Below, one piece after another: positions 1 through 63,255 of a DNA stretch of 64,000 nt (positions within the stretch are counted from its first letter, which is position 1; the number at the start of each line of letters is the position of its first letter). Position numbers and translations under genes: made by a program. Origin of the DNA: Hymenobacter sp. YIM 151858-1 (GTDB lineage Bacteria > Bacteroidota > Bacteroidia > Cytophagales > Hymenobacteraceae); the NCBI RefSeq assembly GCF_025979705.1, contig NZ_CP110136.1, forward strand, positions 3,844,001-3,908,000, written 5' to 3'. The notes under the pieces are model-generated. The model had not been told where the DNA came from and made no database searches. It worked only from the letters and a program-made list of their open reading frames with translations.

Positions 1-1622
1 ACAACCACGAGGAAGGCCTCATGGCTGACTTGATGCGCAAGGCTGGTGAGCTGGGCCTGTTTGGTGTGAGCATCCCCGCTGAGTACGGCGGCTACGACAT
101 GGACTTCAACACCTCGCTGCTCGTAACCGAGGGCGTAGGCGGTGGCCACTCGTTCCCGGTTGCTTTCGCGGCCCACACGGGCATCGGTATGCTGCCCATC
201 CTGTACTTCGGTACCGAGGAGCAGAAGGCCAAGTACATTCCGGACCTGACCAGCGGTGCTAAGTTTGCCGCCTACTGCCTCACCGAGCCCGGCTCGGGCT
301 CCGACGCCCTAGGTGCCAAAACCAAGGCCGTGCTGACGGAGGATGGCAACAGCTACGTGCTGAACGGCCAGAAGATGTGGATTACCAACGCCGGCTTTGC
401 CGACGTGTTCATCGTTTTCGCGCAGGTTGATGGCGACAAGTTCACCGGCTTCATTGTGGAGCGCGGCACGCCCGGCCTCACCTTCGGCAACGAAGAGCAC
501 AAAATGGGCATCAAAGGCTCCTCCACGCGCCAGGTATTCCTTTCTGACTGCGTAGTACCGAAGGAGAACGTACTGGGCGAAGTAGGCAAAGGCCACCTCA
601 TCGCCTTCAACATCCTGAACATCGGCCGCATCAAGCTGGCTGCTGCCTGCCTGGGTGCAGCCAAGCGCGTGGCTGGCCTGAGCGTGAAGTATGCCAACGA
701 GCGTCAGCAGTTCAAGCTGCCGATTGCCAAGTTCGGCGCCATCCGCCAGAAGATTGCCCAGCAGGCTATCCGCATCTACGCCGTAGAGTCGGCTATCTAC
801 CGCGCGGGCATGGACATCTACCGCAAGGAGCAGGAGCTGCAGTCGCAGGGCCAGGGCCACAACGAAGCGCTGCTGGGTGCTGCCCGCGAGTTTGCCGTGG
901 AGTGCGCCATCCTGAAGGTAGAAGGCTCGGAAGTGCTCGACTACGTGGTGGACGAAGGTGTGCAGATCTACGGTGGCTACGGCTTCTCGGCCGACTACCC
1001 CATGGACCGCGCTTACCGCGACTCGCGTATCAACCGCCTGTTTGAGGGCACTAACGAAATCAACCGCATGCTGGCCGTTGATATGATCCTGAAGAAGGGT
1101 CTGAAGGGCGAGCTGGACCTGATGAGCGCCGCTACGGCCGTGCAGCAGGAGCTGATGGCCATTCCGGACTTCGGCGGTGAGGAAGAAACCGGCCTGTTCA
1201 GCAAGGAATACAAGACCATCAAGAACCTGAAGAAGGCCATCCTGATGGTAGCCGGCACGGCCGTTCAGAAGTACATGAACTCGCTCGCCAAAGAGCAGGA
1301 AGTGCTGATGAACATCGCCGACATGGCCATTAAGGTGTACACCGCCGAAAGCACGTTGCTGCGCGTGGAGAAAGAAGTGAGCCTGAAGGGCGAAGACGCC
1401 CTGGGTCCGCAGATCGACATTGCCCGCGTGTACCTGGCCGACACCGTTGACCTGGTGAACAAGTCGGGCAAAGACGCCATTGCCTCCATGACCGAAGGCG
1501 ACGAGCAGCGCCTGCTGGCCCTGGGCCTGAAGCGCTTCACCAAGGCCGAGCTGTTCAACACCAAGGACGCGCGTCGTCGCATTGCGGCGCCGCTGATCGA
1601 GGCCAACGATTACGTGTACTAA
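1..1622 (+). CDS. Acyl-CoA dehydrogenase (5' truncated by window edge)
   Basis: FAD-dependent acyl-CoA dehydrogenase of fatty-acid beta-oxidation, which introduces the alpha-beta double bond of acyl-CoA and passes electrons to ETF. The frame is open from base 3 (NHEEGL before the first Met at base 21), so the start lies upstream. Family marks are TEPGSGSDALGAKTKA (flavin/substrate loop), RQVFLSDCVVPKENVLG, the YGGYGF segment and the FEGTNEI segment that carries the catalytic Glu. About 180 residues follow the canonical ~380-residue core; this long form of roughly 600 residues is usual in Bacteroidota and resembles VLCAD-like enzymes in layout. The gene uses CTG for nearly all Leu, as expected for high expression, and carries one CCTAGGT copy (Ala-Leu-Gly-Ala). 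A strong terminator follows. The exact chain-length specificity cannot be told. Confidence 0.95.
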   Translation, partial: NHEEGLMADLMRKAGELGLFGVSIPAEYGGYDMDFNTSLLVTEGVGGGHSFPVAFAAHTGIGMLPILYFGTEEQKAKYIPDLTSGAKFAAYCLTEPGSGSDALGAKTKAVLTEDGNSYVLNGQKMWITNAGFADVFIVFAQVDGDKFTGFIVERGTPGLTFGNEEHKMGIKGSSTRQVFLSDCVVPKENVLGEVGKGHLIAFNILNIGRIKLAAACLGAAKRVAGLSVKYANERQQFKLPIAKFGAIRQKIAQQAIRIYAVESAIYRAGMDIYRKEQELQSQGQGHNEALLGAAREFAVECAILKVEGSEVLDYVVDEGVQIYGGYGFSADYPMDRAYRDSRINRLFEGTNEINRMLAVDMILKKGLKGELDLMSAATAVQQELMAIPDFGGEEETGLFSKEYKTIKNLKKAILMVAGTAVQKYMNSLAKEQEVLMNIADMAIKVYTAESTLLRVEKEVSLKGEDALGPQIDIARVYLADTVDLVNKSGKDAIASMTEGDEQRLLALGLKRFTKAELFNTKDARRRIAAPLIEANDYVY

Positions 1623-1683
1623 GCGACACGCAAGCATCCCTGCCGCGGGGAAACGGCAGGGCTATTTCCCGATGGGGGAAAAC

Positions 1684-1720
1684 TGAAAAACGCCGCTCCG
1701 GCTTGGAGCGGCGTTTTTTG
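1684..1720 (+). terminator. Rho-independent terminator after acyl-CoA dehydrogenase
   Basis: An 11-bp perfect stem (1689-1699 with 1705-1715) around a 5-base loop, preceded by an A run and followed by a T run. It can act for both the dehydrogenase and the convergent gene ending at 1740. Confidence 0.9.
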
Positions 1721-1739
1721 TTGTGGCTGTTCGGTTGCC

Positions 1740-2075: not shown

Positions 2076-3560
2076 CTACTTCAGCACGATTTTGTTGAGC
2101 TGAAGGGCAGCCGATTTCTTGTTGGGGCGCGTTACCACTACCATCGTCTTGTCGTCGAGCCAGGCGGTAAAGTCCTTCACGTAGGCCAGCTGCTGGTCGT
2201 TGGCAACGTTCAGACCTAGGGCCTTCGGGGCCGTTACCGCGCCGGTAGCTGCTGTCACTTTACGGCCGAACAGATCCGACTTGTTCTGCAGCTTCTCCAT
2301 CGTCACGATGCTCACATCGTTGCCGATGGTGGCGGCGCGGTAGCCGATGCCCGTGAAGCTCTCAGCGGCCGGCGCAATCTGGTGCTTGGCCACTACCTTC
2401 TGCCACGTGGGCGACTGAAACTCGTTGTAGCCGAACAGGTGCAGCTCGCGGGCGTGCACGGGGGCATTCTCGCCTTCTTCGGCTTTTTTCTCGGCAATTA
2501 CCACTACGTTCTGGTCGTCGGTGCGCAGTACGTCGGAGAGGTACACGTCGTCGAGGCGCTTGGCCGCTCCGCCGGTGGCTTTGTTTACCTCGGCCAGGTA
2601 CTCCGGCGTAAACTTGAACTCCGGCGCAAACTTCATGTCGGTGTTGGCGAAGTCGAATTTCACCAGCTTCAGGCTGTAGTACTCGCCCGAGTTGAAATCG
2701 GCGCAGAGGGCAGCGCCAAACAGGGTTTTGCCATCGAGCATGCGCCACTGCGTGTCGCGCACGGTCACCTTTTTGCCGCCAAACGTGCCGCCCACCGCTA
2801 CCGACATCACCTTCACTTCCGTCTCGGCATCGGCGTAGCGGCGCACCGTCAGCTTCTGGTTGTTGTCGCTGATGAGGGCCACGTACTGCGTGCCGTCGTT
2901 GGCCACATACACGGTAGGGGAGAAGAACGAACCTAGGGCCGCGAAGTCGTAGCTGCGGTCTTTCAGCTTATTCAGCTGCCGATCGTAGTGCACCGCGTTC
3001 AGGGCTTTGATCTGCTCCTCGCGCGTTACGTAGCGGAACGCGACCAGCTGCGTGCCATCGGGCGAAATACTGATGCCCGGGCGCCGCTCGCGCGGGCCGC
3101 CTGCCGCCACTTTCTTGGCCGCAGCTTTCTGGCCGGTTTTTAAGTCGATGGGTTGCACGAGCAAATGCTGACCCGTTTCGTCTTTGTGGTGCACCACCAC
3201 CAAGGCCTGCTGATCGTTGCGCGAAAACGCTTCCAGGCTTTCGCCGGCAGCAACCGGCACAGCTGCCGACCACACTTTTTTCAGGTCGGCATCGTAGCGC
3301 TCTACGGCGTATTCAGAGGCCGATCGGTGACTCAGGATAATAAAATCCTTACTGCCGGCAATGGGCAGCGTTTTCACGTGAACGCGCTGGTTGTAAGGGT
3401 CCTCGGTATGCTCGGGTACGTAGGCGAACGGGGTAGAGCGCACGCGTTGCGCTTCGGCAACGGGCGCGTTCAGGCACAGGCCAGCTACCAAAAAAGCGGC
3501 CGAGAGGTGAAAAAAAGAAAAGCGCACGGAATGAATTGGTTTAAAGGGGCTTGTAAGCAA
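2076..3560 (-). CDS. Secreted hypothetical protein, possible beta-propeller
   Basis: A 494-residue protein with an N-terminal signal sequence (hydrophobic stretch at about residues 14-35, ending near APVAEAQ). The body alternates short hydrophobic strands with turns and has recurring phrases such as ISPDGTQLVAFR, YVANDGTQYVALI and DDKTMVVVTRP, typical of beta-propeller blades (WD40/PD40-like); this fold assignment is an inference. No catalytic motif was seen. It is followed without spacing by the small gene at 1740-2075. A TACCTTTG promoter element lies about 20 bases upstream of the ATG. Likely exported to the periplasm or cell surface. Confidence 0.8.
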   Translation of the reverse strand: MLTSPFKPIHSVRFSFFHLSAAFLVAGLCLNAPVAEAQRVRSTPFAYVPEHTEDPYNQRVHVKTLPIAGSKDFIILSHRSASEYAVERYDADLKKVWSAAVPVAAGESLEAFSRNDQQALVVVHHKDETGQHLLVQPIDLKTGQKAAAKKVAAGGPRERRPGISISPDGTQLVAFRYVTREEQIKALNAVHYDRQLNKLKDRSYDFAALGSFFSPTVYVANDGTQYVALISDNNQKLTVRRYADAETEVKVMSVAVGGTFGGKKVTVRDTQWRMLDGKTLFGAALCADFNSGEYYSLKLVKFDFANTDMKFAPEFKFTPEYLAEVNKATGGAAKRLDDVYLSDVLRTDDQNVVVIAEKKAEEGENAPVHARELHLFGYNEFQSPTWQKVVAKHQIAPAAESFTGIGYRAATIGNDVSIVTMEKLQNKSDLFGRKVTAATGAVTAPKALGLNVANDQQLAYVKDFTAWLDDKTMVVVTRPNKKSAALQLNKIVLK

Positions 3561-3580
3561 CGCTAAAAAAAGTTCCTACT

Positions 3581-3588
3581 CAAAGGTA
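3581..3588 (-). promoter_or_regulatory. Bacteroidota-type -7 element upstream of 2076-3560
   Basis: On the minus strand this reads TACCTTTG, a perfect match to the TAnnTTTG -7 consensus of Bacteroidota. It lies 20 bases upstream of the start codon at 3560. No good -33 TTTG was seen at the usual distance. Confidence 0.5.
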
Positions 3589-3883
3589 TCATTCTGCGGG
3601 CCGCTCCCGTACACGCCCCGCTGCCTAACGCTCAAAATCAGTTGTTCACGTTTTCTTAACCCGTTTTTTGTCACCTCTTGCTCATCTAATCGTTTGAGCC
3701 ACCTAGGATTACCCGGAATGAAGGCTTAAATTTGCGCCGCGGTAACGCAAAGTCGGTCTGCCACACCGATCAGCGCGCATTAAATCTATTTCTAGGGTTC
3801 CGCCAGTCAAGCCAGCCGGGCTTGGCCAACGTTTAGGCCCAACTTTTGCAGAGGCCTGCTCCCTCCACCTGTCGATTGCTCAC
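3589..3883. other. Intergenic region between divergent genes
   Basis: A divergent intergenic region with one CCTAGG copy at 3702 and, on the plus strand, TAAATTTG at 3727-3734, a match to the -7 consensus. The latter could drive the small gene at 3884 with a leader of about 140 bases. Nothing else was recognised. Confidence 0.4.
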
Positions 3884-4096
3884 ATGAAATCCTTTTTACA
3901 ATTCGTTGTTCTGCTAACCCTGGTTGTTTTGGGCAAGCTCGTTAAAGAGCGCGCCAGTACTTCAGTTGCTGTTACGCCCCAACCGATCTACCAACCCGTA
4001 AACTCGCTGCACGCGTTTTTTGCCCGCCCGGTAAGTTACTCCGAAGCGCAAGGCAGCAACGCTCCGGTTCGAGCGACAACCGTCTCGATGAACTAG
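3884..4096 (+). CDS. Small secreted or membrane-anchored hypothetical protein
   Basis: A 70-residue protein beginning MKSFLQFVVLLTLVVLGKLV, one hydrophobic segment of about 17 residues that could be a signal peptide or an anchor, followed by a polar Ser/Thr/Val/Pro-rich tail of about 50 residues without cysteines or known motifs. I do not recognise a family. Support for it being real comes from the plausible export signal, an upstream TAAATTTG element and a strong terminator beginning five bases after the stop codon. It stands alone between divergent and convergent neighbours. Confidence 0.55.
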   Translation: MKSFLQFVVLLTLVVLGKLVKERASTSVAVTPQPIYQPVNSLHAFFARPVSYSEAQGSNAPVRATTVSMN

Positions 4097-4100
4097 CACT

Positions 4101-4128
4101 GTAAAACGGCTCCCAGAGCCGTTTTTTT
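4101..4128 (+). terminator. Rho-independent terminator after the small gene
   Basis: An 8-bp stem (4105-4112 with 4116-4123) with a 3-base loop and a run of seven T. It is likely shared with recG, which ends at 4154 on the other strand. Confidence 0.85.
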
Positions 4129-4153
4129 ATGCCCATACCGCAGCGGGCAGTTG

Positions 4154-6250
4154 TTAGCTGATGCGGCTCCAGTTCACGGCCGTAGGCGGCAACGACTCAA
4201 TGTGGCGGCGGATGTTCTGGTTTTCGGTTTTCGCCAGGTTGGGGTCATCGTTGAGCAGCTCCTGCGCCGCCGCCCGCGACTCCGTCAAAATCTTGCCGTC
4301 TTTGGCTAAGTCGGCCACCAGCAGATCGAGCACCCCGCTTTGCTGCGTGCCCATCAGGTCGCCCGGCCCGCGCAGCTTCAGGTCGATGTCGGCAATTTCA
4401 AAGCCATTGTTCGTGCGCACCATGGTTTCGAGGCGGGTGCGCGAATCTTTGCTGAGCTTGTAGCCCGACATCAGGATGCAATAGCTCTGATCGGCGCCCC
4501 GGCCCACGCGGCCGCGCAGCTGGTGCAACTGCGAAAGGCCAAACCGCTCGGCCGATTCAATCACCATCACCGAAGCATTGGGCACGTTCACGCCTACCTC
4601 AATCACGGTAGTGGCCACCATTATCTGGGTTTCGTTGCGCAGGAAACGCTGCATCTCGTAGTCCTTGTCGGCGGCGCTCATGCGGCCGTGCACAATGCTC
4701 ACCTTGTACTCCGGAAAAGCGCGCGTAATGCTCTCGTAGCCGTCGGTCAGGTCCTTGTACTCGGCCATACTTTCGCTTTCCTCAATCAGCGGGTACACCA
4801 CGTAGCACTGCCGACCTAGGCGTATTTGCTGGCGCATGAACTCAAATACCTTCAGGCGGTTCGAGTCGAAGCGGTGCACGGTTACGATGGGCTTGCGGCC
4901 GGCGGGCAGCTCGTCGATTACCGACACGTCCAGGTCGCCGTAAAGCGTCATGGCCAGCGTGCGGGGTATGGGCGTGGCCGTCATCACCAGCACGTGCGGA
5001 ATTACGTGCGGGTTCTTTTGCCACAGTTTCGAACGCTGCGCCACACCGAAGCGGTGCTGCTCGTCCATAATGGTGAGCCCTAGGTTCCGGAACTGCACCA
5101 CGTCTTCGAGCAGGGCGTGGGTGCCCACCAGCATGTGCAATTCGCCCGAGCGCAGCTGTTCGTGCAATACACGGCGCTCCGAGGTGCGGGTGCTGCCCGT
5201 AAGCTTGCCAATCTTGATGCCGAGCATGTCGGCAAACTTCTTCAGGCCCTCGTAGTGCTGGTCGGCCAGGATTTCGGTAGGGGCCATCATGCACGATTGG
5301 GCACCGTTGTCGGCGGCAATCAGCATCGAGATAAACGCCACAATGGTTTTGCCCGAGCCTACGTCGCCTTGCAGCAGGCGGTTCATCTGCTTGCCGGCCG
5401 TAAAATCCTTGTAAATGTCGTGGATTACCCGCTTCTGCGCCATCGTCAGATCGAAGGGCAGCACATTTTTATAGAAGTGCGTGAGCGTGGGCACTTTGTC
5501 GAAAATCTGCCCGGCCAGCTCCACCTTACGCTCGGTTTTTTGGCGCAGCAGCTTCAGCTGAATGTAAAACAGCTCCTCAAACTTTAGCCTTAAGCGGGCG
5601 GCCTGCAGCAAATCGGCGCTTTGCGGGAAGTGAATCTGCTGCATGGCCTCGGCCTTGGGCATCAGGGCGTAGCGCTGAATCAGGTCGGCCGAAAGCGTTT
5701 CGTGGAAGTGTGGTGCCGCCAGCTTCAGCACCTGCGCCATCAGCTTGCCGATGCCCTTGGTGTCGAGGTTGAAGTTGCGCAGCTTGTCGGTGCTGGAGTA
5801 CACCGGCTGCAGAAACGAAGCGCCGGGCTTCACCTCCGATACTTCTTCCAGCTCGGGGTGGGCTATCTGCGGCTTGCCATTGAACAGCGTCGGCTTGCCG
5901 AAAACTATGTACTCCTGGTGGTTTTTCAGCCACTTCTCAAACCACTTCACGCCCTTAAACCACACCAGCTCCACCTCGCCGCTGGCATCCTGCGCCTTGG
6001 CCACGAGGCGCTGCTTGCGGCCCTCGCCCAGCAGCTCCTTGGTGCGCACGGTAGCCTTCACCTGTACCATGGGCAGGTCGTCGTGCAAGTCGCACACGTG
6101 GTAGAACTGCGTGCGGTCGAGGTAGCGGAAGGGGTAAAACTGCACCAAGTCGCCGTAGGTGAACAGGTTCAGCTCTTTGGCCAGCACGTCGGCCCGCCGC
6201 GTATCCATACCGCGGAGCAGGGCAATTTTGGTGTTGAAGAAGTTGCTCAT
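4154..6250 (-). CDS. recG: ATP-dependent DNA helicase RecG
   Basis: A 698-residue branched-DNA helicase that reverses stalled replication forks and processes Holliday junctions. An N-terminal wedge/OB region (about residues 1-230, with the typical PFRYLDRT near the start) is followed by a superfamily 2 motor: Walker A GDVGSGKT, MMAPTEILADQHY (motif Ia), DEQH (motif II), VMTATPIPRTLAMT (motif III) and a second RecA lobe with VHGRMSAADKD and QLRGRVGRG. The length is normal for the family. It lies 86 bases downstream of gldD in the same orientation and may be read from the gldD promoter. CCTAGGT copies at 4815 and 5079 are both read as Leu-Gly. Confidence 0.97.
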   Translation of the reverse strand: MSNFFNTKIALLRGMDTRRADVLAKELNLFTYGDLVQFYPFRYLDRTQFYHVCDLHDDLPMVQVKATVRTKELLGEGRKQRLVAKAQDASGEVELVWFKGVKWFEKWLKNHQEYIVFGKPTLFNGKPQIAHPELEEVSEVKPGASFLQPVYSSTDKLRNFNLDTKGIGKLMAQVLKLAAPHFHETLSADLIQRYALMPKAEAMQQIHFPQSADLLQAARLRLKFEELFYIQLKLLRQKTERKVELAGQIFDKVPTLTHFYKNVLPFDLTMAQKRVIHDIYKDFTAGKQMNRLLQGDVGSGKTIVAFISMLIAADNGAQSCMMAPTEILADQHYEGLKKFADMLGIKIGKLTGSTRTSERRVLHEQLRSGELHMLVGTHALLEDVVQFRNLGLTIMDEQHRFGVAQRSKLWQKNPHVIPHVLVMTATPIPRTLAMTLYGDLDVSVIDELPAGRKPIVTVHRFDSNRLKVFEFMRQQIRLGRQCYVVYPLIEESESMAEYKDLTDGYESITRAFPEYKVSIVHGRMSAADKDYEMQRFLRNETQIMVATTVIEVGVNVPNASVMVIESAERFGLSQLHQLRGRVGRGADQSYCILMSGYKLSKDSRTRLETMVRTNNGFEIADIDLKLRGPGDLMGTQQSGVLDLLVADLAKDGKILTESRAAAQELLNDDPNLAKTENQNIRRHIESLPPTAVNWSRIS

Positions 6251-6336
6251 GCAGTCATTCAGCTGCCAGCAGCAGGCGAGTGGCTATGGGCAGGGCCCTA
6301 GGTGGATAACAGTGGTTAGCTGATGGGAGGCCAGGC

Positions 6337-6918
6337 TTACTGGTACTTCAGCGTATTGACGAGGTGTACGATGTCCTCCTTCACGTAGTCGATAACCGGC
6401 GCCAGCGAGTCGTTGGCTACGGCCGTGCGGAAATACAGCGCCCCGCGGAAGAAATGCTTCGTGGAATCGGTAGTGTAGAACTGAAACTGGCTCGGCACCT
6501 CGCCGCTCAGCTCGAACACGGTTACCTGCTTTCCGTCGGGCGTTTTCAGCATGTTTTCCTCAATGGCCGACGCCTTGATCTGGTGCTTGCCCGTGAGCTT
6601 GCGCGCGTCCTCCAGCATCTTGGCGAACAGTTTGGGGTTGTTCTGGATGTCGGTGTAGGTAATCTGCACGTTGGCGTGCAGCGCGGGGTAGTTCACGTTG
6701 ATCCAGTGCGGCTGAGCCAGATACGACGAATCGCGCAGGATGCGGGCGTGCTTCGAGTACTCGAACCGGTACGGGTGGCCGGCCGGCAGTTGCTGGTAAG
6801 CGTGCGGCGGCAAATCGATGCGGTTGTAGCCTTTGGGCTTGGGCGTGTAATCGGAGGCGGTGTTGCAGCCCGAAAGCAGCAAACCGGCAATCAGCAGCGC
6901 GCAGTAGGAGCGGAGCAC
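6337..6918 (-). CDS. gldD: Gliding-motility lipoprotein GldD
   Basis: A periplasmic or outer-membrane lipoprotein of the gliding/type IX secretion machinery. The lipobox is LLLSGC near residue 18, followed by [14 protein letters not shown], a hallmark of GldD, and the conserved YSKHARI, WINVNYP and FFRGALYF stretches. I chose the GTG at 6918 because a -7 promoter element (6945-6952) sits only three bases before the alternative TTG at 6942, which would leave no room for a transcript start; the GTG start also gives a compact lipoprotein signal. In many relatives the order is mutY, ssb, gldE, gldD; gldE is not here. In Flavobacterium johnsoniae GldD is required for gliding, and loss of gld functions also affects T9SS secretion. 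Confidence 0.88.
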
Positions 6919-6944
6919 AGGCAGCGGGAGAGAAGGTGACAAAC

Positions 6945-6952
6945 CAAAATTA
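6945..6952 (-). promoter_or_regulatory. -7 promoter element for gldD
   Basis: TAATTTTG on the minus strand matches TAnnTTTG. Its position argues for the GTG start of gldD at 6918, giving a leader of about 20 bases. No clear -33 element was seen. Confidence 0.45.
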
Positions 6953-7107
6953 CGCGAAGCAAGCCGGAGTACGCCCTAGGTGCCCGGCCGCTCGGCAGCA
7001 AGCAGCAGCCGAAGCACCTGGAGCAGCGCATTAGTTGCACGCAGCACAAACGCAAACCGCCCCAGCCAACGCATGACTGGGGCGGCTTATGCCACTAAAC
7101 AACCGGC

Positions 7108-7551: not shown

Positions 7552-7640
7552 AATCTTCTGTGTGTCTTGTTGAAAGGAACAACTAGCCGGTGCTAATTGC
7601 ATTACAATATCTAAATTTTTTAGCTAAAAAGCAAACGCTT

Positions 7641-8741: not shown

Positions 8742-8801
8742 CGTGTTGATTATTAATATATTGCCATCAATTGCCCGGATTCACGGTATTTGGCAATTGC
8801 A

Positions 8802-8832: not shown

Positions 8833-8920
8833 TGGCCCGAAATGCCTACCGGGCAAGGGCTTACGGGTTTTTAACAGCTTTTTGCCTATTCTTTTTTTCA
8901 CTTTTCAGGTTCCTAATACA

Positions 8921-55150: not shown

Positions 55151-55368
55151 AGTCAGTGGATTTTGTTGCTTGTTTGGAATTTGAGGGCGGCCGCTGCACA
55201 GTATCTGCTATCCGGAGCGGGGTGCTGCCAACTCGTTACAGCGCCTCTTACGCAATAGCGCTTGCACAATGTTGCGGATCAGTTGTATTATTAATTTTCA
55301 ATAAGCTATATCCAAGCTCAAGCGGCGGGTGCACCGGGCTCAGGTACAAGGGCTAAACGGCGGCTATC

Positions 55369-55376
55369 TATTTTTG
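55369..55376 (+). promoter_or_regulatory. -7 element upstream of the PagL-like gene
   Basis: TATTTTTG matches TAnnTTTG and lies 23 bases upstream of the ATG at 55400. The rest of the 249-base divergent region shows nothing I recognise. Confidence 0.45.
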
Positions 55377-55399
55377 TAGCTGGTCTGATTCCTTTGCTT

Positions 55400-56506
55400 A
55401 TGCCCGCTGCTGTTCGGCGCCTTGTTGTATTGTTGTTGCTGTGGCCGGGGGGGGCGCCGCTGTGGGCGCAGGCACCTAGGGCAACCCAACCGGTGGTGGT
55501 AGGGCTGTACGCGCAAGGCGGTTTTATCATTGCCCACTCGCCCCGCGTTAAGCACCTCGTAACGGCCCACCCCACGGGGCTGGAGCTGAATTTGCAACGC
55601 CAGCTAACCGGCACCCAGCCCTGGCACGCGTGGTACCGCTACCCCAAAGTGGGCGTGGCCCTGGTGTACTACGATTACCACAACCCGGCCATGGGCAAGT
55701 CGTACGCCGGCTCGGTGTACCTCAGCAAAACGGCGTGGCGTACCCCGCGGCAGGAGCTGAGCTTCCGGCTGGGTACGGGCATCGGGTATTTTCCGAAGGC
55801 CTTCGACCGCGAAACCAACCACAAAAACCTGTTCGTCAGCTCGCGGCTGAATGCCACTTTGCAAGCCCGCGCCGAGTACGACGTAGCCCTTACGCCCAAG
55901 CTGGGTTTGCTGGTGGGCCTGGCGCTGAACCACTACTCCAACGGCGCCACCGCCAAGCCCAACCTAGGCGTGAATATTCCGACGGTGGTGCTGGGCCTCA
56001 ACTACCACCGGCAGCGCCAGTTTGTGCCCCTGCCTGCCACGCCCGCCAACGAGCCCACCGACCTAGGGCGCAACTTTTTCAACGTGAGCACCAGCGTGGG
56101 TTTCAAGCAGCGCAACGAATCGGACCGGCAGCGCTACTGGGTAAACTCCGTAACGGTAGCCGGCGGCCGGCGCATCAACCGCAAAAGCAACCTGCTGGTG
56201 GGGCTCGAGGGCTTTTACGACCGCTCCCTGCTGGCCGAGCAGCGCGATACCGCCCGCAACGCCGATAAGCTGCAGGATGTAAAAAAAGCCGGCGTGCTGC
56301 TGGGCCACGAGCTGCTGCTGGGCCGGCTGGCCTTTGGTACCCACCTGGGGTTTTATTTCTACAACCCCTACAAATCCAACAACTTCTACTACGAGCGGCT
56401 CAGCCTGAAATACCACCTCACCCAGCACCTTTTCGGGGCCCTCGATCTGAAAGTACACCGCGGCGCCGCCGACGTAATTGAGTGCCGCGTGGGCGTGCGG
56501 TTGTAG
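55400..56506 (+). CDS. PagL-like lipid A deacylase (acyloxyacyl hydrolase family)
   Basis: A 368-residue outer-membrane barrel enzyme. Signal peptide about 1-19 (GGAPLWAQ); the PagL signature is LNHYSNGA (His-x-Ser-Asn), with Phe/Tyr-rich strands such as KVGVALVYYDYHNP, FRLGTGIGYFPKAFDR and AEYDVALTPKLGLLVGL before it. PagL removes a 3-O-linked acyl chain from lipid A; the Bacteroidota members are about twice as long as Pseudomonas PagL and are annotated acyloxyacyl hydrolase. The activity of this one is an inference from the motif. The frame starts two codons earlier at a TTG; ATG 55400 is preferred. CCTAGG at 55475 is read as Pro-Arg. Confidence 0.82.
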   Translation: MPAAVRRLVVLLLLWPGGAPLWAQAPRATQPVVVGLYAQGGFIIAHSPRVKHLVTAHPTGLELNLQRQLTGTQPWHAWYRYPKVGVALVYYDYHNPAMGKSYAGSVYLSKTAWRTPRQELSFRLGTGIGYFPKAFDRETNHKNLFVSSRLNATLQARAEYDVALTPKLGLLVGLALNHYSNGATAKPNLGVNIPTVVLGLNYHRQRQFVPLPATPANEPTDLGRNFFNVSTSVGFKQRNESDRQRYWVNSVTVAGGRRINRKSNLLVGLEGFYDRSLLAEQRDTARNADKLQDVKKAGVLLGHELLLGRLAFGTHLGFYFYNPYKSNNFYYERLSLKYHLTQHLFGALDLKVHRGAADVIECRVGVRL

Positions 56507-56521
56507 GCTGCCACAATCGGC

Positions 56522-56557
56522 ACGGCCCCGCAGCTGCTTGCAGTTGCGGGGCCGTTC
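56522..56557. terminator. Terminator between PagL-like gene and bTHX gene
   Basis: A GC-rich stem (ACGGCCCCGCA with TGCGGGGCCGT) with a short inner loop between two convergent genes. Confidence 0.75.
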
Positions 56558-56581
56558 GGTTCCTGAGGAGTAGGAAGTAGG

Positions 56582-56704
56582 TTACTTGGTTTCGGCAGGC
56601 TTGGGTGCCGAGGCAATTTTGTTTCGGGTTTTGCGCGGCCGCTTTTTGCCAAACGAGCCTTTCGTGAGCTTGCCGCGTTTCGATTTCTTGTCTCCTTTGC
56701 CCAT
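56582..56704 (-). CDS. 30S ribosomal protein bTHX
   Basis: A 40-residue, strongly basic protein beginning MGKGDKKSKRGKLTKGSFGK and ending PKPAETK. The MGKGDKKSKRGK start is the hallmark of Bacteroidota bTHX proteins, small subunits that sit in the head of the 30S ribosome in Thermus. It is shorter than usual gene-calling limits. The ATG at 56704 and TAA at 56582 are unambiguous. It is downstream of pyrD's divergent end and convergent with the PagL-like gene. A CCTAGG core (one of three without the extra base) lies at 56740. Confidence 0.93.
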   Translation of the reverse strand: MGKGDKKSKRGKLTKGSFGKKRPRKTRNKIASAPKPAETK

Positions 56705-56772
56705 AATGTGTACTGGTGTAAAAGGTGATTGAGAAAATGCCTAGGCTAAAATAGCACCCGGGCAGGTTCGGT

Positions 56773-57825
56773 TCAACCCCGTTCTACGAGCGGCAGCCGG
56801 GCTAGTTCGCGGCACATGCGCTGCACCACGGCGGGCCCTTCGTAAATAAAACCCGTGTAGAGCTGCACCAACGAGGCACCGGCCGCCAGTTTCTCCTGCG
56901 CATCGGCCGGCGAAAAAATGCCGCCTACGCCAATAATCGGCAGCGTGCCGCCCGAGCGTTGGTGCAAGTACCGGATTACTTCGGTGCTGCGCGCCCGCAG
57001 CGGGGCACCGCTCAGGCCACCCGCGCCTATGTGCTCTATTTCGCTGGCTGGGGTGCGCAGGCCGCCGCGCCCGATGGTGGTGTTGGTTGCCACTACGCCG
57101 CTTAAGCCGGCCTCCTGCACAATGGTCACAATGTCGTCGAGCTGCTCGTTGCTGAGGTCGGGCGCGATTTTGAGCAGCAGCGGGCGGGCGGTGCGCTGGG
57201 CGTGGTTGGCGCGTTGCACCTCGCGCAGCAAGGCCAGCAGCGGCTCGCGCTCCTGCAGCTGCCGCAGTCCCGGCGTGTTCGGCGACGACACGTTCACCAC
57301 AAAGTAGTCGACGGTGTCGTGCAGGGCCTGCACGCAGGCCACGTAATCGTCGGCAGCTTGCTCGTTAGGCGTGTCCTTGTTCTTGCCAATGTTGCCGCCG
57401 ATGATGATGCTCGCGCTGCGCTTGCGCAGGCGCTCGGTCGCCGCGGCTGCCCCACCATTGTTGAAGCCCATGCGGTTGATGAGTGCCTGATCGGTTGGCA
57501 GCCGGAACAACCTAGGGGTTGGGTTGCCGGGTTGCGGCCGGGGCGTCACGGTGCCCACTTCCACGTGCCCAAAACCCAAGGCCGCCAGCTCATCAACCAG
57601 CACCGCATTCTTATCGAAGCCGGCAGCGAGTCCGATGGGATTCTTGAACTTCAGCCCGAATACCTCGCGCTCCAGATTGGGGTGCTCGTAGCCGAACTGG
57701 TTGCGCAGCACCGCGTGCGCGAAGGGCAGCTTGCCCGCTGCACCCAGGGCCTCGAAGGTAAAATGGTGTGCCTGCTCGGGGCTGAGGCGGAACAGCAGGG
57801 GGCGCAGGAGGTTCTGGTAAAGCAC
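56773..57825 (-). CDS. pyrD: Dihydroorotate dehydrogenase, class 2
   Basis: A 350-residue quinone-dependent flavoenzyme of pyrimidine synthesis, peripheral on the inner membrane, oxidising dihydroorotate to orotate. The N-terminal helices for quinone access (MLYQNLLRPLLFRLSPEQAH) define class 2; FMN- and substrate-binding motifs are GLAAGFDKNAVLVD, VEVGTVTPRPQPGNPTPRLF, RMGFNNGGA, VVNVSSPNTPGLRQLQ with the catalytic Ser, and IGVGGIFSPADAQEK. The start is GTG at 57825. CCTAGG at 57511 is read as Pro-Arg. The gene lies between a small ribosomal gene and comM. Confidence 0.95.
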   Translation of the reverse strand: MLYQNLLRPLLFRLSPEQAHHFTFEALGAAGKLPFAHAVLRNQFGYEHPNLEREVFGLKFKNPIGLAAGFDKNAVLVDELAALGFGHVEVGTVTPRPQPGNPTPRLFRLPTDQALINRMGFNNGGAAAATERLRKRSASIIIGGNIGKNKDTPNEQAADDYVACVQALHDTVDYFVVNVSSPNTPGLRQLQEREPLLALLREVQRANHAQRTARPLLLKIAPDLSNEQLDDIVTIVQEAGLSGVVATNTTIGRGGLRTPASEIEHIGAGGLSGAPLRARSTEVIRYLHQRSGGTLPIIGVGGIFSPADAQEKLAAGASLVQLYTGFIYEGPAVVQRMCRELARLPLVERG

Positions 57826-57955
57826 GGCGAAAGCAATGAAAAATTCAGAATTAAAAATTATGAATTGACCTGGAAGGGCGCTTGGGTGGATGCATCTGCC
57901 AGCGGGGTGTGAGGGGCCATCTTTAATCTTTAATTCTGAAATTTTAATTGGCCCC
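57826..57955. repeat. AT-rich inverted repeats between pyrD and comM
   Basis: TTCAGAATTAAA at 57844-57855 recurs in inverse at 57929-57940 with AT-rich flanks, inside an otherwise GC-rich region. It resembles the element at 14121-14217 in composition and in its CAGAATT core. Confidence 0.55.
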
Positions 57956-59494
57956 TCAGCCAGCCCAACCTTCCCGGTCGAGCGAGCGGTACTGGATGGC
58001 TTCGGCCAGGTGTTCGATGCGGATTTCGTCGGAGCCGGCCAGGTCGGCGATGGTGCGCGATACTTTCAGGATGCGGTCGTAGGCGCGGGCCGACAGACCC
58101 AGGCGCTCCATGGCGGTTTTCAGCAGCGTGCGCCCGGCCTGGTTTATCTGGCAAATGTCCTTCACCATCTGCGAGGGCATCATGGCGTTGGAGTGGATGT
58201 CGGGGAAGTCCTTGAAGCGCTCGGCCTGCACCTGCCGCGCCTTATCGACGCGCTCCTGAATGCTGGCGCTGCTCTCGGCCCGGCGCGTTTCGGTCATCTG
58301 GTCGAAGGTAACGGGGGTTACCTCCACGTGCAGGTCGATGCGGTCGAGCAACGGGCCCGATACTTTGTTCAGGTAGCGCTGCACCACGCCGGGGCCGCAC
58401 ACGCACTCCTTATCGGGGTGGTTGTAGTAGCCGCAGGGGCACGGGTTCATGCTGGCAATCAGCATGAAGTTGGCCGGGTAATCAATACTCACCTTGGCGC
58501 GCGAAATCGTAACGCGGCGCTCCTCCAGGGGCTGGCGCATTACCTCCAGCACCGTGCGCTTAAACTCGGGTAGCTCGTCGAGGAAAAGTACGCCGTTGTG
58601 CGCCAGCGAGATTTCGCCGGGCTGCGGGTTGCCGCCCCCGCCCACCAGGGCCACGTCGGAAATGGTGTGGTGCGGCGAGCGGAACGGCCGCGTGTTCAGC
58701 AGCGACGAATTTGCGCCCAGCTTGCCGGCTACGGAGTGAATTTTGGTGGTTTCGAGAGCCTCGTGCATGCTCAGCGGCGGCAAAATGCTGGGCAGGCGCT
58801 TGGCCAGCATGGTTTTGCCCGCGCCGGGTGGGCCGATCATGATGACGTTGTGCCCGCCAGCCGCCGCAATTTCCATGGCCCGCTTGATGTTCTCCTGGCC
58901 TTGCACGTCGGCAAAGTCGGCGGCGTACTGGTTGGCCGAGTGCTGAAACACGTCGCGCGTGTCAATCTTCAGCGGCTCAATCTCCTCGCGGCCTTCGAAA
59001 AAGTCGATGGCCTGCTGCATGCTCTCGACGGGGATAATGTCGAGGTTGTTGACGATGGCAGCTTCCTGGGCGTTTTGCTTCGGCAGCACAAAACCCTTGA
59101 AGCCCTCTTTACGGGCCTGAATGGCAATAGGCAGCACGCCTTTGATGGGGCGCAGCTCGCCATCGAGGGCCAGCTCGCCCATAATAATGTACTGGCCCAG
59201 CTTATCGGTGCTGATTTGCTGCGACGCGTGCAGAATACCTAGGGCAATGGGCAAATCGTAGGCCGAGCCTTCCTTGCGGATGTCGGCCGGGGCCATGTTC
59301 ACCACCACTTTGGTGCGCGGCATGTGGTAGCCCCGCACGCGCATGGCCGCCTCAATGCGCTGCTGGCTTTCCTTAATGGCATTATCGGGCAGGCCCACCA
59401 CAAAAAAGTTGGTGCCCTGCGATACGGCAACCTCAATGGTAATGGTGTAAGCGTTGACACCCTGAACGGCCGAACCGTAGGTTTTAGTAATCAT
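57956..59494 (-). CDS. comM: YifB/ComM-family Mg chelatase-like AAA ATPase
   Basis: A 512-residue hexameric ATPase. ComM promotes branch migration of incoming DNA during natural transformation in Haemophilus and Vibrio; the family is also widespread in species not known to transform. N-terminal Lon-like domain about 1-170 (TIEVAVSQGTNFFVVGLPD, VVVNMAPADIRKEGSAYDLP); AAA core with Walker A GPPGAGKTMLA and Walker B FLDELPEF; a zinc-type loop CPCGYYNHPDKECVC; C-terminal Mg chelatase domain. Length is normal. It is one of two hints in the window that bear on DNA uptake, the other being the iterated CCTAGGT motif. No other competence gene is visible here. Confidence 0.93.
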   Translation of the reverse strand: MITKTYGSAVQGVNAYTITIEVAVSQGTNFFVVGLPDNAIKESQQRIEAAMRVRGYHMPRTKVVVNMAPADIRKEGSAYDLPIALGILHASQQISTDKLGQYIIMGELALDGELRPIKGVLPIAIQARKEGFKGFVLPKQNAQEAAIVNNLDIIPVESMQQAIDFFEGREEIEPLKIDTRDVFQHSANQYAADFADVQGQENIKRAMEIAAAGGHNVIMIGPPGAGKTMLAKRLPSILPPLSMHEALETTKIHSVAGKLGANSSLLNTRPFRSPHHTISDVALVGGGGNPQPGEISLAHNGVLFLDELPEFKRTVLEVMRQPLEERRVTISRAKVSIDYPANFMLIASMNPCPCGYYNHPDKECVCGPGVVQRYLNKVSGPLLDRIDLHVEVTPVTFDQMTETRRAESSASIQERVDKARQVQAERFKDFPDIHSNAMMPSQMVKDICQINQAGRTLLKTAMERLGLSARAYDRILKVSRTIADLAGSDEIRIEHLAEAIQYRSLDREGWAG

Positions 59495-59528
59495 TCGAGC
59501 GAAAGCAATCAGCTAAACAGGCAAAAGG

Positions 59529-59556
59529 AAGCCCGCCTTTTGGAGGGGCGGGCTTT
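59529..59556 (-). terminator. Terminator after gmhA
   Basis: A 9-bp stem (59529-59537 with 59547-59555) with a T-rich tail on the minus strand, after the gmhA stop at 59570. A CCTAGG core at 59558 lies between the stop and the stem. Confidence 0.75.
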
Positions 59557-59569
59557 ACCTAGGGCAAAT

Positions 59570-60175
59570 TTACAAAGCATCTGGCTGCTTGGCTGCTACG
59601 AGTCGCTCGATTAGCAAAATCAGGATGTGAATTACTTTGATGTGTATCTCCTGAATGCGGTCGGCGTAGCCGGCGTGCGGCGCGCGTATTTCTACATCGG
59701 CCAGCGCGGCGAGGGGGCCGCCGTCTTTGCCGGTAAGGGCCACCACCTGCATGCCGGCAGCCTTGGCGGCCTCGGCGGCGCGCAGCACGTTGGGCGAGTG
59801 GCCGCTGGTGCTAATGGCCAGCAGCACATCGCCCCCGCGACCCAGGGCCTGCACGTAGCGGCTGAACACGTACTCGTAGCCGTAGTCGTTGGCCACGCAG
59901 CTCATGTGCGAGGCCTCGGTAAGCGCAATGGCGGCCAGGGCGGGCCTATCCTGGCGGTAGCGGCCCGAAAGCTCTTCGGCGAAGTGCTGCGCATCGCACA
60001 GCGAGCCGCCGTTGCCGCAGCTCAGGAGCTTGCCGCCACCCAGCAGGCTGGTAGCCATTAGCTGCGCGGCTTGCTCGATGCGGGCCAGGTTGGTGGGCTC
60101 GGCCAAAAAACGCTCGAGCACGGTGCGGGCTTCCGTTAGTTCAGCCCGGATAAGGTCGGTGAGGGTATCTGCCAC
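59570..60175 (-). CDS. gmhA: Sedoheptulose-7-phosphate isomerase
   Basis: A 201-residue SIS-domain enzyme making D-glycero-D-manno-heptose 7-phosphate, the first step to the heptose of LPS core. Zinc and substrate residues are visible: [17 protein letters not shown] (His, Glu), [31 protein letters not shown] and [12 protein letters not shown] (Gln, His). Start GTG at 60175. It follows by nine bases the gene at 60185-60754 on the same strand and ends at its own terminator. The partner heptose genes are not in the window. Confidence 0.92.
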
Positions 60176-60184
60176 GCCGCGAAG

Positions 60185-60754
60185 TTACACAGCGGGGCGG
60201 TCGTTCGGGTAGGGCGGCGTGTTGGTGGGGTGCGGATGAATGGTAGTGGGCGGCACGGCGCTGGGCGGCAGGTCGGCGGCGGAGGGCGGCGGCACAGCGG
60301 TGCGCGGCAAATCCTGGTCGTAGCCTTCGTCGAGGGGGCGTACGGGCGGCATGGTGGTGCGGGCAATGCTGCCGGGGGCGGCTTGCGGCTGCGGCGTTAC
60401 GGTAGGCTGGGCTACCACGGGCTCGGCCGGGCGGGGCGTGCTGGTGCCACCCGAGCGCCACGATTGGTCGCGTTGCTCCAGTTGGTGGTCGTAGAGCTTG
60501 GCTTTCAGTTCGTTGATTTTGGCTTCATAATGCGTCACGTTGCGGCGCAGCGCCACGGTGTGGGCATTCTCGACGAGCAGCAGCAACAGCAGCAGGGCGG
60601 CGCCAATCAGCATCATGTTGAACCAGAAATCGGCGCGGCTGGTGCCAAACATGCTGATCATGGCATCGCGGGCACCGGCCGTTACGGCCAGCAGCAAGGC
60701 CATCAGCAGGTACACCATCACCAGCACGGTAACTATTCGACGGAGGGCTATCAT
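60185..60754 (-). CDS. Membrane protein with proline-rich tail
   Basis: A 189-residue protein of unknown function. Two hydrophobic segments (about residues 6-28 and 45-63), a short coiled coil (about 65-95, RRNVTHYEAKINELKAKL), then a Pro/Ala/Thr-rich tail of about 90 residues with PP-type repeats, probably cytoplasmic. I do not recognise a family. It is directly upstream of gmhA (nine bases) and thus co-transcribed, which may point to an envelope role. Start ATG 60754. No -7 element was recognised upstream. Confidence 0.7.
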   Translation of the reverse strand: MIALRRIVTVLVMVYLLMALLLAVTAGARDAMISMFGTSRADFWFNMMLIGAALLLLLLLVENAHTVALRRNVTHYEAKINELKAKLYDHQLEQRDQSWRSGGTSTPRPAEPVVAQPTVTPQPQAAPGSIARTTMPPVRPLDEGYDQDLPRTAVPPPSAADLPPSAVPPTTIHPHPTNTPPYPNDRPAV

Positions 60755-61178
60755 ACGGAAAGAGGTTTGTGGAGGAGAGCCGCGCAGCTGCCAGGCCGCG
60801 CCGCGGAAATATACCTCTTTACGTATGGTTGCTCGAACAAGTGGCGTGAGGATGCACTGGCGCGAACAAACGGCAACCTGGATATGCTGGCGCGAGTCTT
60901 AGCGCGGAGCGCGCGACTCGTGCCGCAGCATGGGTGGGAATCTCCAGACTTCCGGGCGTTGCACGGCACTTAGAGAACGGCTTGCTGACTTAAGCTCCTT
61001 GGCTTGCGTGCCCCAGCGGCACCTAGGCCGGGTCGTTCACGGTACGGGAGTCGGAGACTCCCCTCCATACCTAGGCACGAGTCGCGCGCTCACGCGCTAA
61101 GACGCGCGCCAGTTTATTGTGCGTTGCTCGCGCCGGGTTGCCTGTTCGATGCGTCACTCTATCCCTAGGTGCCTCGTG
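60755..61178. repeat. Large inverted-repeat element, about 330 bases, no gene
   Basis: Arms at 60889-60924 and 61074-61110 are inverted copies with one mismatch and one indel (GGCGCG ... GACTCGTGCC). Similarity continues outward on both sides for about 50 bases with small gaps (GCGCGAACAAACGGCAAC on the left against its inverse on the right), and a second, looser inverted pair lies inside (about 60930-60962 with 61028-61068). Two CCTAGGT copies are at 61022 and 61070, a third at 61164. The rest of this 424-base region codes for nothing I recognise. Looks like a MITE or a fossil hairpin element. Confidence 0.7.
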
Positions 61179-63026
61179 CTACGCCAACGCCGGGTTTCCT
61201 TGCATCCGACTCAGGCGGGCATACAGGCCATCGGGGCGGCTCAGCAGCTCGTCGTGGGTGCCGCGCTCGGCAATGCGGCCGTGCTGCAGCACCACAATCT
61301 CATCGGCGTGTTGCACGGTGCTGAGGCGGTGGGCAATTACCAGCGAAGTGCGGTTGGTCATGAGGCGCGTTAAGGCTTCCTGCACCAGCTTTTCGCTTTC
61401 GGTGTCGAGGGCCGAGGTGGCTTCGTCGAGAATGAGAATGGGCGGATTGCGCAAAATGGCGCGGGCAATGCTCAGGCGCTGCCGCTGCCCACCCGAAAGG
61501 CGCGTGCCCCGGTCGCCGATGATAGTGTTGTATCCCTCGGGCGAGGCCATGATGAACTCGTGGGCGTTGGCAATTTTGGCGGCCTCCATTACCTCCTGCT
61601 CCGTGGCGTCCTGTTTGTTGAAGCGGATGTTGTTGAAAACGGTGTCGTTGAACAGGATGCTCTCCTGCGTTACGATGCCCATTTGCGCCCGCACCGAGTG
61701 CAGGGTGCAGTCGCGCAGGTCGTGGCCATCGATGAGGATCTGGCCGGCGGTGGGGTCGTAAAAGCGCGGTACCAAATCGGCCAGGGTGCTTTTGCCGCCG
61801 CCCGAGGGGCCCACCAGCGCCACGGTTTTGCCCTTGGGTACTACCAGGTTAATGTCTTCCAGCACCGTACGCTCGCCGTAGCTGAAGGCCACGTTGCGGA
61901 ACTCCACTTCGTGCGCAAACGCAGGCAGCACCTGCGCATTCGGCTTGTCCTTGATTGTAGGCTCAGTGTCGATTACCGACAGCACCCGCTCGCCGGCCAC
62001 CAGGCCGCGCTGAATGTTGCTGAACGCCGACGACAAGGCCTTGGCCGGCACCAGCACTTGCGAAAACAGCACGATGTAGGTAATAAAGTTGGCCGCGGTC
62101 AGGTCCGATTCGCCGCCCAGCACCAGGGTGCCGCCGAAGTACAGCAGCGCCGCCACCACCGATACGCCGGCAAACTCCGAGAACGGCGAGGCCAGGTCGC
62201 GGGTGTTGTCGATGCTGCGCTGGGTGCGGGCGTACTGCTCGTTCTGCGCGTGAAACTTGCTCAGGATGTACGGCTCGGCGTTGAAGGCCTTAATGACGCG
62301 CACGCCACCTAGGGTTTCGTCAATCACCGAGAGCATCGAGCCCAGGGTTTGCTGGCTTTGCTGGGCCTGGCGGCGCAAACGCTTCGAAATGCCCGCAATC
62401 AGCCCACCCGAAATCGGCAGCAGAATCAGCGTGAACAACGTTAGCTTGACGGACATAAAAAACAGCACCGCGAAATAGCCCACGATGGCCAGCGGCTCCC
62501 GGATAACGGCCGTGAGCGAGTTCACCACCGAGGTTTCCACCTCCTGCACGTCGTTGGTAAAGCGCGACATCAGGTCGCCTTTTTGGGCCGCCGTGAAGTA
62601 GCCCAGTTGCAGCTGCGTTACGCGCTGGTACAGGGCGGCGCGCAGGTTGCGGATAACGCGGGCGCGCACCTTGGCCAGCAGCCGCAGCCCTAGGTACCGG
62701 AACACGTTGCTCAGAAATACCGAGCCAATCAGCAGCATGCACACCCACGCCAGCGCCCCGAGCTTGCCCTGCGTTTCGATTACCTCGCGGAAGTGGTACT
62801 TGAACGTATCGGTGATAAACGACAGCGACAGGCTGAACGCCGGCGGGGCGCCGGGCGCTTCGGCCAGCATTTTGCCGGTGGTGTCGAACAGGATATTGAG
62901 CAGCGGAATGAGCATGCCGAAGTTGGCAATGCCAAAGAAGATGCCCAGCACCGTGAACAGGATGTACTGGGGCAGAAAATCGGCGTAGGGCCGGGCAAAA
63001 CGCAGAATGCGGAGGTAAGTCTTCAT
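61179..63026 (-). CDS. MsbA-type ABC exporter
   Basis: A 615-residue half-transporter, membrane domain fused to ATPase. Six transmembrane helices in about 1-335; the nucleotide-binding part carries Walker A GPSGGGKST, Q-loop IVTQESILFND, signature LSGGQRQRLS, Walker B ILILDEATSALD and H-loop IAHRLST. It belongs to the lipid/drug exporter (MsbA/LmrA-like) group that can flip lipid A core across the inner membrane; gmhA nearby and a PagL-like gene in the window fit, but the substrate is an inference. The ATG 63026 is preferred over the ten-residue upstream extension. A -7 element lies only eight bases upstream, implying a very short leader. Confidence 0.93.
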   Translation of the reverse strand: MKTYLRILRFARPYADFLPQYILFTVLGIFFGIANFGMLIPLLNILFDTTGKMLAEAPGAPPAFSLSLSFITDTFKYHFREVIETQGKLGALAWVCMLLIGSVFLSNVFRYLGLRLLAKVRARVIRNLRAALYQRVTQLQLGYFTAAQKGDLMSRFTNDVQEVETSVVNSLTAVIREPLAIVGYFAVLFFMSVKLTLFTLILLPISGGLIAGISKRLRRQAQQSQQTLGSMLSVIDETLGGVRVIKAFNAEPYILSKFHAQNEQYARTQRSIDNTRDLASPFSEFAGVSVVAALLYFGGTLVLGGESDLTAANFITYIVLFSQVLVPAKALSSAFSNIQRGLVAGERVLSVIDTEPTIKDKPNAQVLPAFAHEVEFRNVAFSYGERTVLEDINLVVPKGKTVALVGPSGGGKSTLADLVPRFYDPTAGQILIDGHDLRDCTLHSVRAQMGIVTQESILFNDTVFNNIRFNKQDATEQEVMEAAKIANAHEFIMASPEGYNTIIGDRGTRLSGGQRQRLSIARAILRNPPILILDEATSALDTESEKLVQEALTRLMTNRTSLVIAHRLSTVQHADEIVVLQHGRIAERGTHDELLSRPDGLYARLSRMQGNPALA

Positions 63027-63034
63027 CGGAGGTG

Positions 63035-63042
63035 CAAAGGTA
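63035..63042 (-). promoter_or_regulatory. -7 element of the MsbA-type gene
   Basis: TACCTTTG on the minus strand, a perfect TAnnTTTG match, eight bases upstream of the start codon. It overlaps the first bases of the inverted repeat element at 63041-63255. No -33 at standard spacing. Confidence 0.45.
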
Positions 63043-63255
63043 GACCACGGATTCAAGCGGATTCATCGGATTCCGCGGATTTCGTGGGCGGCCGCGCGCG
63101 TAGCGGGCCGGCACCTAGGGCGCGGCCTGGCCAGGCCGCGCCCTAGGTGCCGGCCAGCCGGCCCAACGCCAACGGCCCGGAGCAGGTGCCCCGGGCCGTT
63201 GGCGTTGTTCACAAAATCCGCGGAATCCGATGAATCCGCCCGAATCCGTGGTCTA
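63041..63255. repeat. Nested inverted-repeat element between MsbA-type and RemB-like genes
   Basis: Outer arms 63041-63087 and 63209-63255 are inverted copies with only a few mismatches (TAGACCACGGATTC at the ends). Inside are a 50-bp perfect palindrome (63106-63155) and a 17-bp stem with a 10-base loop (63164-63180 with 63191-63207). The outer right end contains the stop codon of the RemB-like gene. No coding potential was seen. Confidence 0.88.
63106..63155. repeat. 50-bp perfect palindrome with two CCTAGGT motifs head to head
   Basis: The two 25-base arms meet at 63130/63131 without a spacer. Each arm carries one motif, at 63113-63119 (ACCTAGG) and 63142-63148 (CCTAGGT). Confidence 0.92.

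Follow-up and report, generated by a model that had tools for sequence, protein, structure and literature searches.

The heptamer CCTAGGT, repeated on both strands throughout the DNA analysed here, belongs to a set of dialect words that spans the family Hymenobacteraceae and shares a TA core. The features of these words (mostly asymmetric, on both strands, in dialects built around a core, chromosomal and maintained) match DNA uptake sequences (DUS) best. We give about an even chance to the reading that CCTAGGT is the local dialect of self-recognition words which would work like a DUS, without calling it one. The earlier note was right in describing CCTAGGT as an iterated motif, and wrong in treating it as a single one. 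To our knowledge, genome-wide self-tags with dialects have come from Neisseriaceae and Pasteurellaceae, and palindromic ones from cyanobacteria; we know of no such self-tag previously known in Hymenobacteraceae.

The window, i.e., the whole stretch of 64,000 nt analysed, had 40 copies of CCTAGGT, 40 copies of ACCTAGG (CCTAGGT on the minus strand), no copy of the octamer ACCTAGGT and 125 CTAG tetramers. The 80 oriented copies extended from 308 to 63148, about one per 800 bases. On the plus strand (308..63148) their first bases were 308, 1739, 2037, 5079, 6297, 6975, 12200, 15302, 17747, 18145, 20275, 21341, 21956, 22883, 23183, 23471, 24221, 26739, 27209, 27632, 27911, 28049, 33500, 34646, 36031, 39874, 40678, 41086, 42071, 43586, 44980, 47161, 50988, 51006, 51863, 54358, 54984, 61164, 62689 and 63142. 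For the minus strand (2214..63119) they were 2214, 2931, 3701, 4814, 7872, 9903, 10804, 14758, 15647, 17225, 19086, 19826, 21737, 22066, 23950, 28259, 31203, 34159, 34213, 34897, 36564, 36830, 37533, 38273, 46572, 47268, 47726, 48084, 52535, 52661, 55474, 55962, 56061, 57510, 59237, 59557, 61021, 61069, 62307 and 63113. Three further CCTAGG, extended on neither flank, began at 12451, 25058 and 56740. All 83 CCTAGG stand against 14.3 expected from an order-3 Markov model, an expectation itself inflated by the motif. The recount reproduced all the counts given earlier for the window, and the proposed Markov check upheld the excess at the scale of the window.

The density also held outside the window. 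The 4.62-Mb genome contained 5,096 heptamers (2561 + 2535), as against 28 copies of the reversed word (15 + 13). The chromosome carried on average 26 CCTAGG per 20 kb (21 bins, with the island stretch L016 left out). Contigs C2 and C3, putative plasmids judging from their size, had 2, 0 and 0 in the three 20-kb stretches sampled, and the 20 kb of L016 had 4. L016 opens with the gene of a phenylalanyl-tRNA synthetase, after which come an integrase-like gene and a nuclease. An apparently even spacing of CCTAGG (variance/mean 0.24 for 20-kb stretches, 21 bins, without L016 and L020) was not upheld with more stretches: the ratio rose to 0.78 over 26 bins with five new ones (16, 16, 36, 25 and 17 copies), and to 1.46 over 27 bins including L016. 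The octamer ACCTAGGT, said never to be seen, was indeed missing from the window, and occurred 12 times in the 464 kb of this genome that were counted. A T followed ACCTAGG at 5% of 533 oriented sites of this genome, compared with 19% in the background. The missing octamer is thus a depletion and no ban.

The motif acts at the DNA level, not at the protein or codon level. By simple gene calls, 302 of the 335 coding copies lay on Leu-Gly codon pairs, while 147 copies were intergenic and 52 at gene edges. Leu-Gly was written CTA GGT at 170 of 619 places after NNC, versus 7 of 497 after other bases (odds ratio 26.5, Fisher p 1.8e-39, same simple gene calls). About half of the Leu-Gly places after C in this genome (302/619) bore the motif. 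The density was ~2.0 times higher in intergenic than in coding DNA (1.87 vs 0.93 per kb), and this ratio reached 3.2 and 2.4 in the relatives that carry AACTATA and AGGTATA, respectively.

Compared with same-genus species of similar GC without the excess, CCTAGGT was enriched 78 times in the window genome. Its 18 one-mismatch neighbours at positions 1–6 ranged from 0.23 to 1.95 times, none reaching twofold. Changes at position 7 were raised 11 to 140 times, which we read mostly as the same sites on the opposite strand. In the AGGTATA and AAGTATA groups the T4/A5 neighbours were not enriched (0.6 to 1.4) and A to G at position 7 was tolerated (5.7 and 4.6 times, respectively). The AACTATA group had several one-mismatch neighbours raised 2 to 4.8 times, with AACGATA at 4.8. 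Sharp specificity is a property of the window genome, not a general one across dialects.

Comparing the density across relatives, as had been suggested, confined the CCTAGGT excess to eight of 204 Hymenobacteraceae genomes. The distribution was bimodal, these eight having >2500 copies per strand and the next highest 345. They are the window genome (G000), G200, G201, G023, G029, G081, G097 and G116. G000 belongs to the genus g1, as does G201 (Solirubrum puertoriconensis MC1A, L071), and five other species of g1 were at background. In a draw of 296 genomes from the phylum only G000 was high; among the other 295, two of them Hymenobacteraceae, the highest count was 249 + 219. Below, g4 is termed Hymenobacter and g6 Pontibacter, some of their members matching named loci (G029, G034, G054, G081 and G097) or falling among these in the tree (G147). 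CCTAGGT was patchily distributed within Hymenobacter.

Other words, similarly dense or denser, were found in relatives: AACTATA, AGGTATA, AAGTATA and ATATATA in the Pontibacter group, and GGGGTAG, GGCCTAG and CCCTAGGG in Hymenobacter. When words were counted de novo in 80 named loci, mostly of 22 kb, the top heptamer scored at least 5.5 in 21 loci and had a TA core in 19 of these. The other two enriched words, GGGCCCC (L127) and GCCCCCC (L093), fall outside the dialect pattern. In one g6 genome of 4.1 Mb the four ARSTATA words together totalled 10446 + 10284, versus 839 + 898 for the control, and they reached 5 copies per kb genome-wide in g6; their forward count was at least twice the control in 42 of 50 g6 genomes. 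ATATATA was interspersed in G182 (17 copies in 20 kb). CCCTAGGG was found in a stretch of G065, GGCCTAG in one of G130, and GGGGTAG-type words also in G012, G027, G066 and G080. The apparent motif of G180 was mostly a tandem array. No clear dialect appeared in 20 kb each of G054, G111, G129, G017, G126, G183, G184, G194 and G176, nor any in 16 other families of the order, which were thinly sampled with one genome and 10–20 kb each.

Aligned on the TA, the dialects of Solirubrum and Pontibacter approximate to [C/A]-A-NN-TA-NN-[G/A]-C. A T directly after the heptamer was rare: Solirubrum had fractions of 0.05 and 0.07, three Pontibacter groups had 0.04, 0.07 and 0.07, and G182 had 0/34; the octamer ACCTAGGT is missing because of this rarity. 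The H. crusticola clade is an exception: of 228 ACCTAG sites there, half have T at this place, and ACCTAGGT was common. CCTAGG, ACCTAGGT (crusticola clade) and CCCTAGGG (G065) are palindromes; CCTAGGT, AACTATA, AGGTATA, AAGTATA and GGGGTAG are not.

The sites are conserved between relatives. In the sister genome G200 (88.6% identity) 52 of 70 aligned heptamers were intact, compared with 49.7% for all heptamers, and in G201 46 of 67, compared with 49.3%. A better control than all heptamers is CTAG inside and outside the motif: it was kept in 54/70 versus 6/35 cases in G200 (p 4e-9), and in 52/68 versus 18/39 in G201 (p 0.0016). Against three same-genus species without the excess, only 1/34, 0/28 and 0/45 heptamers survived. 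Gaps were found at 2/36, 3/31 and 3/48 aligned sites of the same species, the differences being substitutions. A transposon- or MITE-borne repeat, with copies arising by insertion, is contradicted by these mostly ungapped sites.

We used recG (4154..6250, minus strand) as the marker for the search of relatives and for the phylogeny. On the RecG tree (86 rows) AGGTATA and AACTATA formed one clade each and required one change each; GGCCTAG required one, AAGTATA two, and CCTAGGT and GGGGTAG three each. We do not claim three independent origins of CCTAGGT, although the tree needs three changes, as its sites coincide between the clades. The word stood at the same orthologous place in 8/17, 12/19 and 13/21 cases between the three clades, more than heptamers generally. 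Heavy occupancy of permissive Leu-Gly places accounts for most of this coincidence. Conserved Leu-Gly places preceded by C were occupied in 7/16 (L071), 10/16 (L124) and 14/17 (L097) cases, and none of the same kind in five motif-poor Hymenobacter loci. Conditioned on permissive Leu-Gly places, the coincidence gave p values of 0.12, 0.12, 0.27, 0.017 and 0.009 for five pairs, in a test that left out places not C-preceded in both (22 to 32 per pair). Heavy occupancy explains the coincidence mostly, perhaps not wholly.

The earlier note chose its comparisons, HIP1 and DUS/USS, well. Of the two, DUS/USS is favoured by the evidence: the word is asymmetric, its dialects are core-based, it lies on both strands, the signal is at the DNA level and it is nearly absent from the plasmid stretches sampled. 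A lineage-specific DNA-binding receptor would prefer DNA with its own word, of which the TA core would be common while the dialect would determine the flanks. Once imported, DNA of kin would recombine into the chromosome in place of the resident DNA, and alleles with the motif would thereby spread and persist. We infer that biased import followed by recombination may be the driving force; one receptor family may stand behind all dialects, and the TA step may be central because it is easily bent.

USS of Pasteurellaceae occur about once per kb, and their specificity is graded. The words here are similar in their density of ~1 copy per kb, in being non-palindromic and in lying mostly in genes, but they have no long flanking consensus, and the window genome, with its unenriched neighbours at positions 1–6, is sharper than USS, which speaks against the uptake reading. 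One orientation of USS is commoner in reading frames (PMC2346458). G000 (223:172, p 0.012) and the AACTATA group (103:58, p 0.0005) had such a bias, which the AGGTATA group (72:84) lacked. The gene-end excess of USS described for all Pasteurellaceae (PMC2346458) differs from our results: G000 had no concentration at gene ends, where its deciles were low (decile test, p 0.056), and the Pontibacter deciles (p 0.45, and 0.016 for the uneven AGGTATA group) had no consistent end excess.

The DUS of Neisseriaceae comprise eight dialects with a CTG core (PMC3630211). As here, they number thousands in a genome, their dialects span the family around an invariant short core, and intergenic regions are permissive (PMC3630211); some dialects are confined to one clade. 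The DUS word is longer, whereas the words here are TA-centred, have seven to eight bases and come from Bacteroidota; unlike DUS, the window genome has no enriched one-mismatch class. DUS serve uptake by ComP and the type IV pilus, whereas the CCTAGGT-rich genomes had no pilus ATPase match.

DUS/USS systems use the type IV pilus ATPase family. The corresponding pilus/type II secretion ATPase domain (PF00437) had no match in any of the eight CCTAGGT-rich genomes, a point against the uptake reading. Over 31 genomes nine matched, with one full-length match (G009) and short ones of about 50–65 residues in G012 and the seven g6 genomes, of which one, in G159, passed the cut-off; this ATPase search recognised no type IV pilus-type uptake machine in the CCTAGGT-rich genomes. 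A receptor, if it exists, is not tied to a findable pilus/type II secretion ATPase in the CCTAGGT-rich genomes. ComEC was found in 31/31 genomes, motif-bearing or not; it does not track the motif, and this also weighs against uptake. The comM/YifB-like gene to which the earlier note had pointed is in the window (57956..59494, minus strand, with Mg_chelatase and ChlI domains), but its link to the motif carries little weight, since ComEC is present in 31/31 genomes.

In Riemerella anatipestifer, also a member of the Bacteroidota, a transposon screen gave four essential transformation genes unlike the well-known machinery, plus ComEC, DprA, ComF and RecA, and YifB mutants transform less (PMC8459023). 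Because this machinery is unlike the known one, another uptake route is a reasonable assumption; the main text of that paper never uses the term "uptake sequence". DUF5689 (PF18942), a surface-protein lead from Riemerella, matched in 78 of 204 genomes, and the strong matches examined were mostly part of a SusC-SusD-DUF5689-metallophosphatase operon. The SusD orthologue of this operon (E below 1e-160) was found in 18 g4, 8 g5, 8 g6 and 0 g1 genomes. Each of the five CCTAGGT-rich Hymenobacter genomes had it, yet so did G055, G123, G131, G136, G017 and G126, where 20 kb show no clear motif, and it was absent from G000, G200, G201 and 42 of 50 g6 genomes. We rejected the operon as the determinant, its presence not tracking the motif. 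The motif status of the SusD-bearing G117, G101 and G059 was ambiguous. Weak DUF5689 matches in G200/G201 and G197 belonged to a different gene beside mutS2. A DNA-binding protein that tracks the density, as had been proposed, was not among the candidates searched (ComEC, PF00437 and DUF5689/SusD).

Further points against the uptake reading are the patchy distribution in Hymenobacter and the two enriched words without a TA core. Among the literature matches listed, none reported that Hymenobacteraceae take up DNA or are transformed, and no title or abstract described such a motif in Bacteroidota. A table in PMC1939737 prints GCCTAGGC, a palindrome of unknown effect. More tentatively, and with less than even confidence, we suggest a sequence-specific, pilus-independent self-recognition system of Bacteroidota with a TA-centred word, near-enzymatic stringency of the receptor, dialect switching within a genus and the rewriting of about half of the C-preceded Leu-Gly codon pairs in the window's chromosome. 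If true, this would be a third self-tag radiation, in another phylum, without the pilus ATPase and of independent origin. Some forty motif-rich g6 genomes with several dialects would then serve for mapping receptor specificity, and DNA exchange in environmental Bacteroidota would be directly testable with donor DNA that bears or lacks a seven-base tag.

The main rival is a HIP1-like repair drive, in which a methyltransferase would recognise the motif or its core and methylation-dependent mismatch repair would convert near-matches into the motif. HIP1 and its alternates are palindromic, and each alternate is paired with a matching methyltransferase (PMC4390886). The extreme excess, the lineage-specific alternates and the differences between relatives by substitution are alike in both. 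This explanation keeps some weight because of the sharp specificity of the window genome, whose step-like form suits an enzyme, and of the palindromic members CCTAGG, ACCTAGGT and CCCTAGGG. We nevertheless consider it unlikely: most dialects (AACTATA, AGGTATA, AAGTATA, GGGGTAG) are non-palindromic, and the presence of CCTAGGT is not followed by either of two methyltransferase superfamilies. Six of the eight CCTAGGT-rich genomes had no match to the C5 methyltransferases (PF00145), five had none to the N6/N4 methyltransferases (PF01555), and G200, G029, G097 and G116 lacked both.

The words could also mark where an abundant nucleoid or chromosome-organising protein binds, each site being kept by ordinary selection. 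Their chromosome-wide presence on both strands, their conservation and their near absence from the plasmid stretches sampled fit such a protein, but with about half of the C-preceded Leu-Gly places occupied, thousands of copies would each need selection, and the near-total absence from same-genus species opposes an essential structural role; we regard this as rather improbable. A Chi-like recombination signal, read by AddAB/RecBCD and sparing self DNA from degradation, would likewise be a short species-specific motif far above chance and tied to chromosomal DNA. Chi sites are usually polar, though, and against the sign of the GC skew, a weak proxy of the leading strand with small skew in many stretches, there was no strand polarity in four sets (255:283, 173:151, 105:124 and 50:45), which leaves a Chi-like role very improbable.

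A passive product of codon usage, composition or mutation bias, to which the many Leu-Gly copies might point, is scarcely credible given the dependence of CTA GGT on a preceding C, the higher intergenic density, the 78 times lower level in same-genus species of similar GC and the one-mismatch neighbours that are not raised. The codon usage of these genomes would be read differently, because many of their rare CTA codons appear to be set by the tag.

In Solirubrum puertoriconensis MC1A (G201), a sister genome of the window's genome, a site-poor region (L058) had four copies of the hexamer CCTAGG. Its genes included a large one of the LRR/DUF6443 type and another with an RHS repeat, and the region is likely variable DNA. 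The window's own genome had a single strong match to a C5 methyltransferase (G000:C1:3021030-3022109), located ~1 kb past its site-poor island stretch (L016). Therefore, this methyltransferase may be island-borne. No CCTAGG was found in 20 kb of contig C3, a plasmid-like contig of the same genome (L320). This contig had over-represented words of its own, GTGGCCAC (18 copies, counted on both strands) and CTTATAAA (10 copies).

Other words were enriched in the relatives. GGGGCCCC/GGGCCCC was over-represented in H. nivis, one MAG and genome G059 (L127, L129, L307), and lacked the TA core, so a second class of iterated word may exist besides the TA-core words. Both H. sp. BT188 and H. roseosalivarius (L093, L103) had an excess of the octamers GGGGGGCA/GGGGGCAA, with 16 copies of GGGGGGCA, counted over both strands, in 22 kb of L093. 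TGGATCC, the heptamer reversed and used as control word, had only 0 to 1 copies in some Hymenobacter (e.g., G016, G077 and G114), and because of this near absence GGATCC looks to be avoided in them. In a genome from another family of the order (G249, stretch L223), we detected a GGCCAAACCGAAGG-like repeat, interspersed or tandem, with 24 GGCCAAAC in 20 kb, counted over both strands.

A SusC-SusD-DUF5689-metallophosphatase operon (L273, 7547-15423) was conserved, and its counterpart was present in each of L274-L285 and L288-L290. In the members examined from Pontibacter and a further genus (g5), it was accompanied by a PLD-type nuclease. The operon possibly has a role in nucleic-acid scavenging.

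The marker gene recG of genome G129 was recovered in three separate matches (G129:C1:506809-508903), one of them containing an internal TGA.
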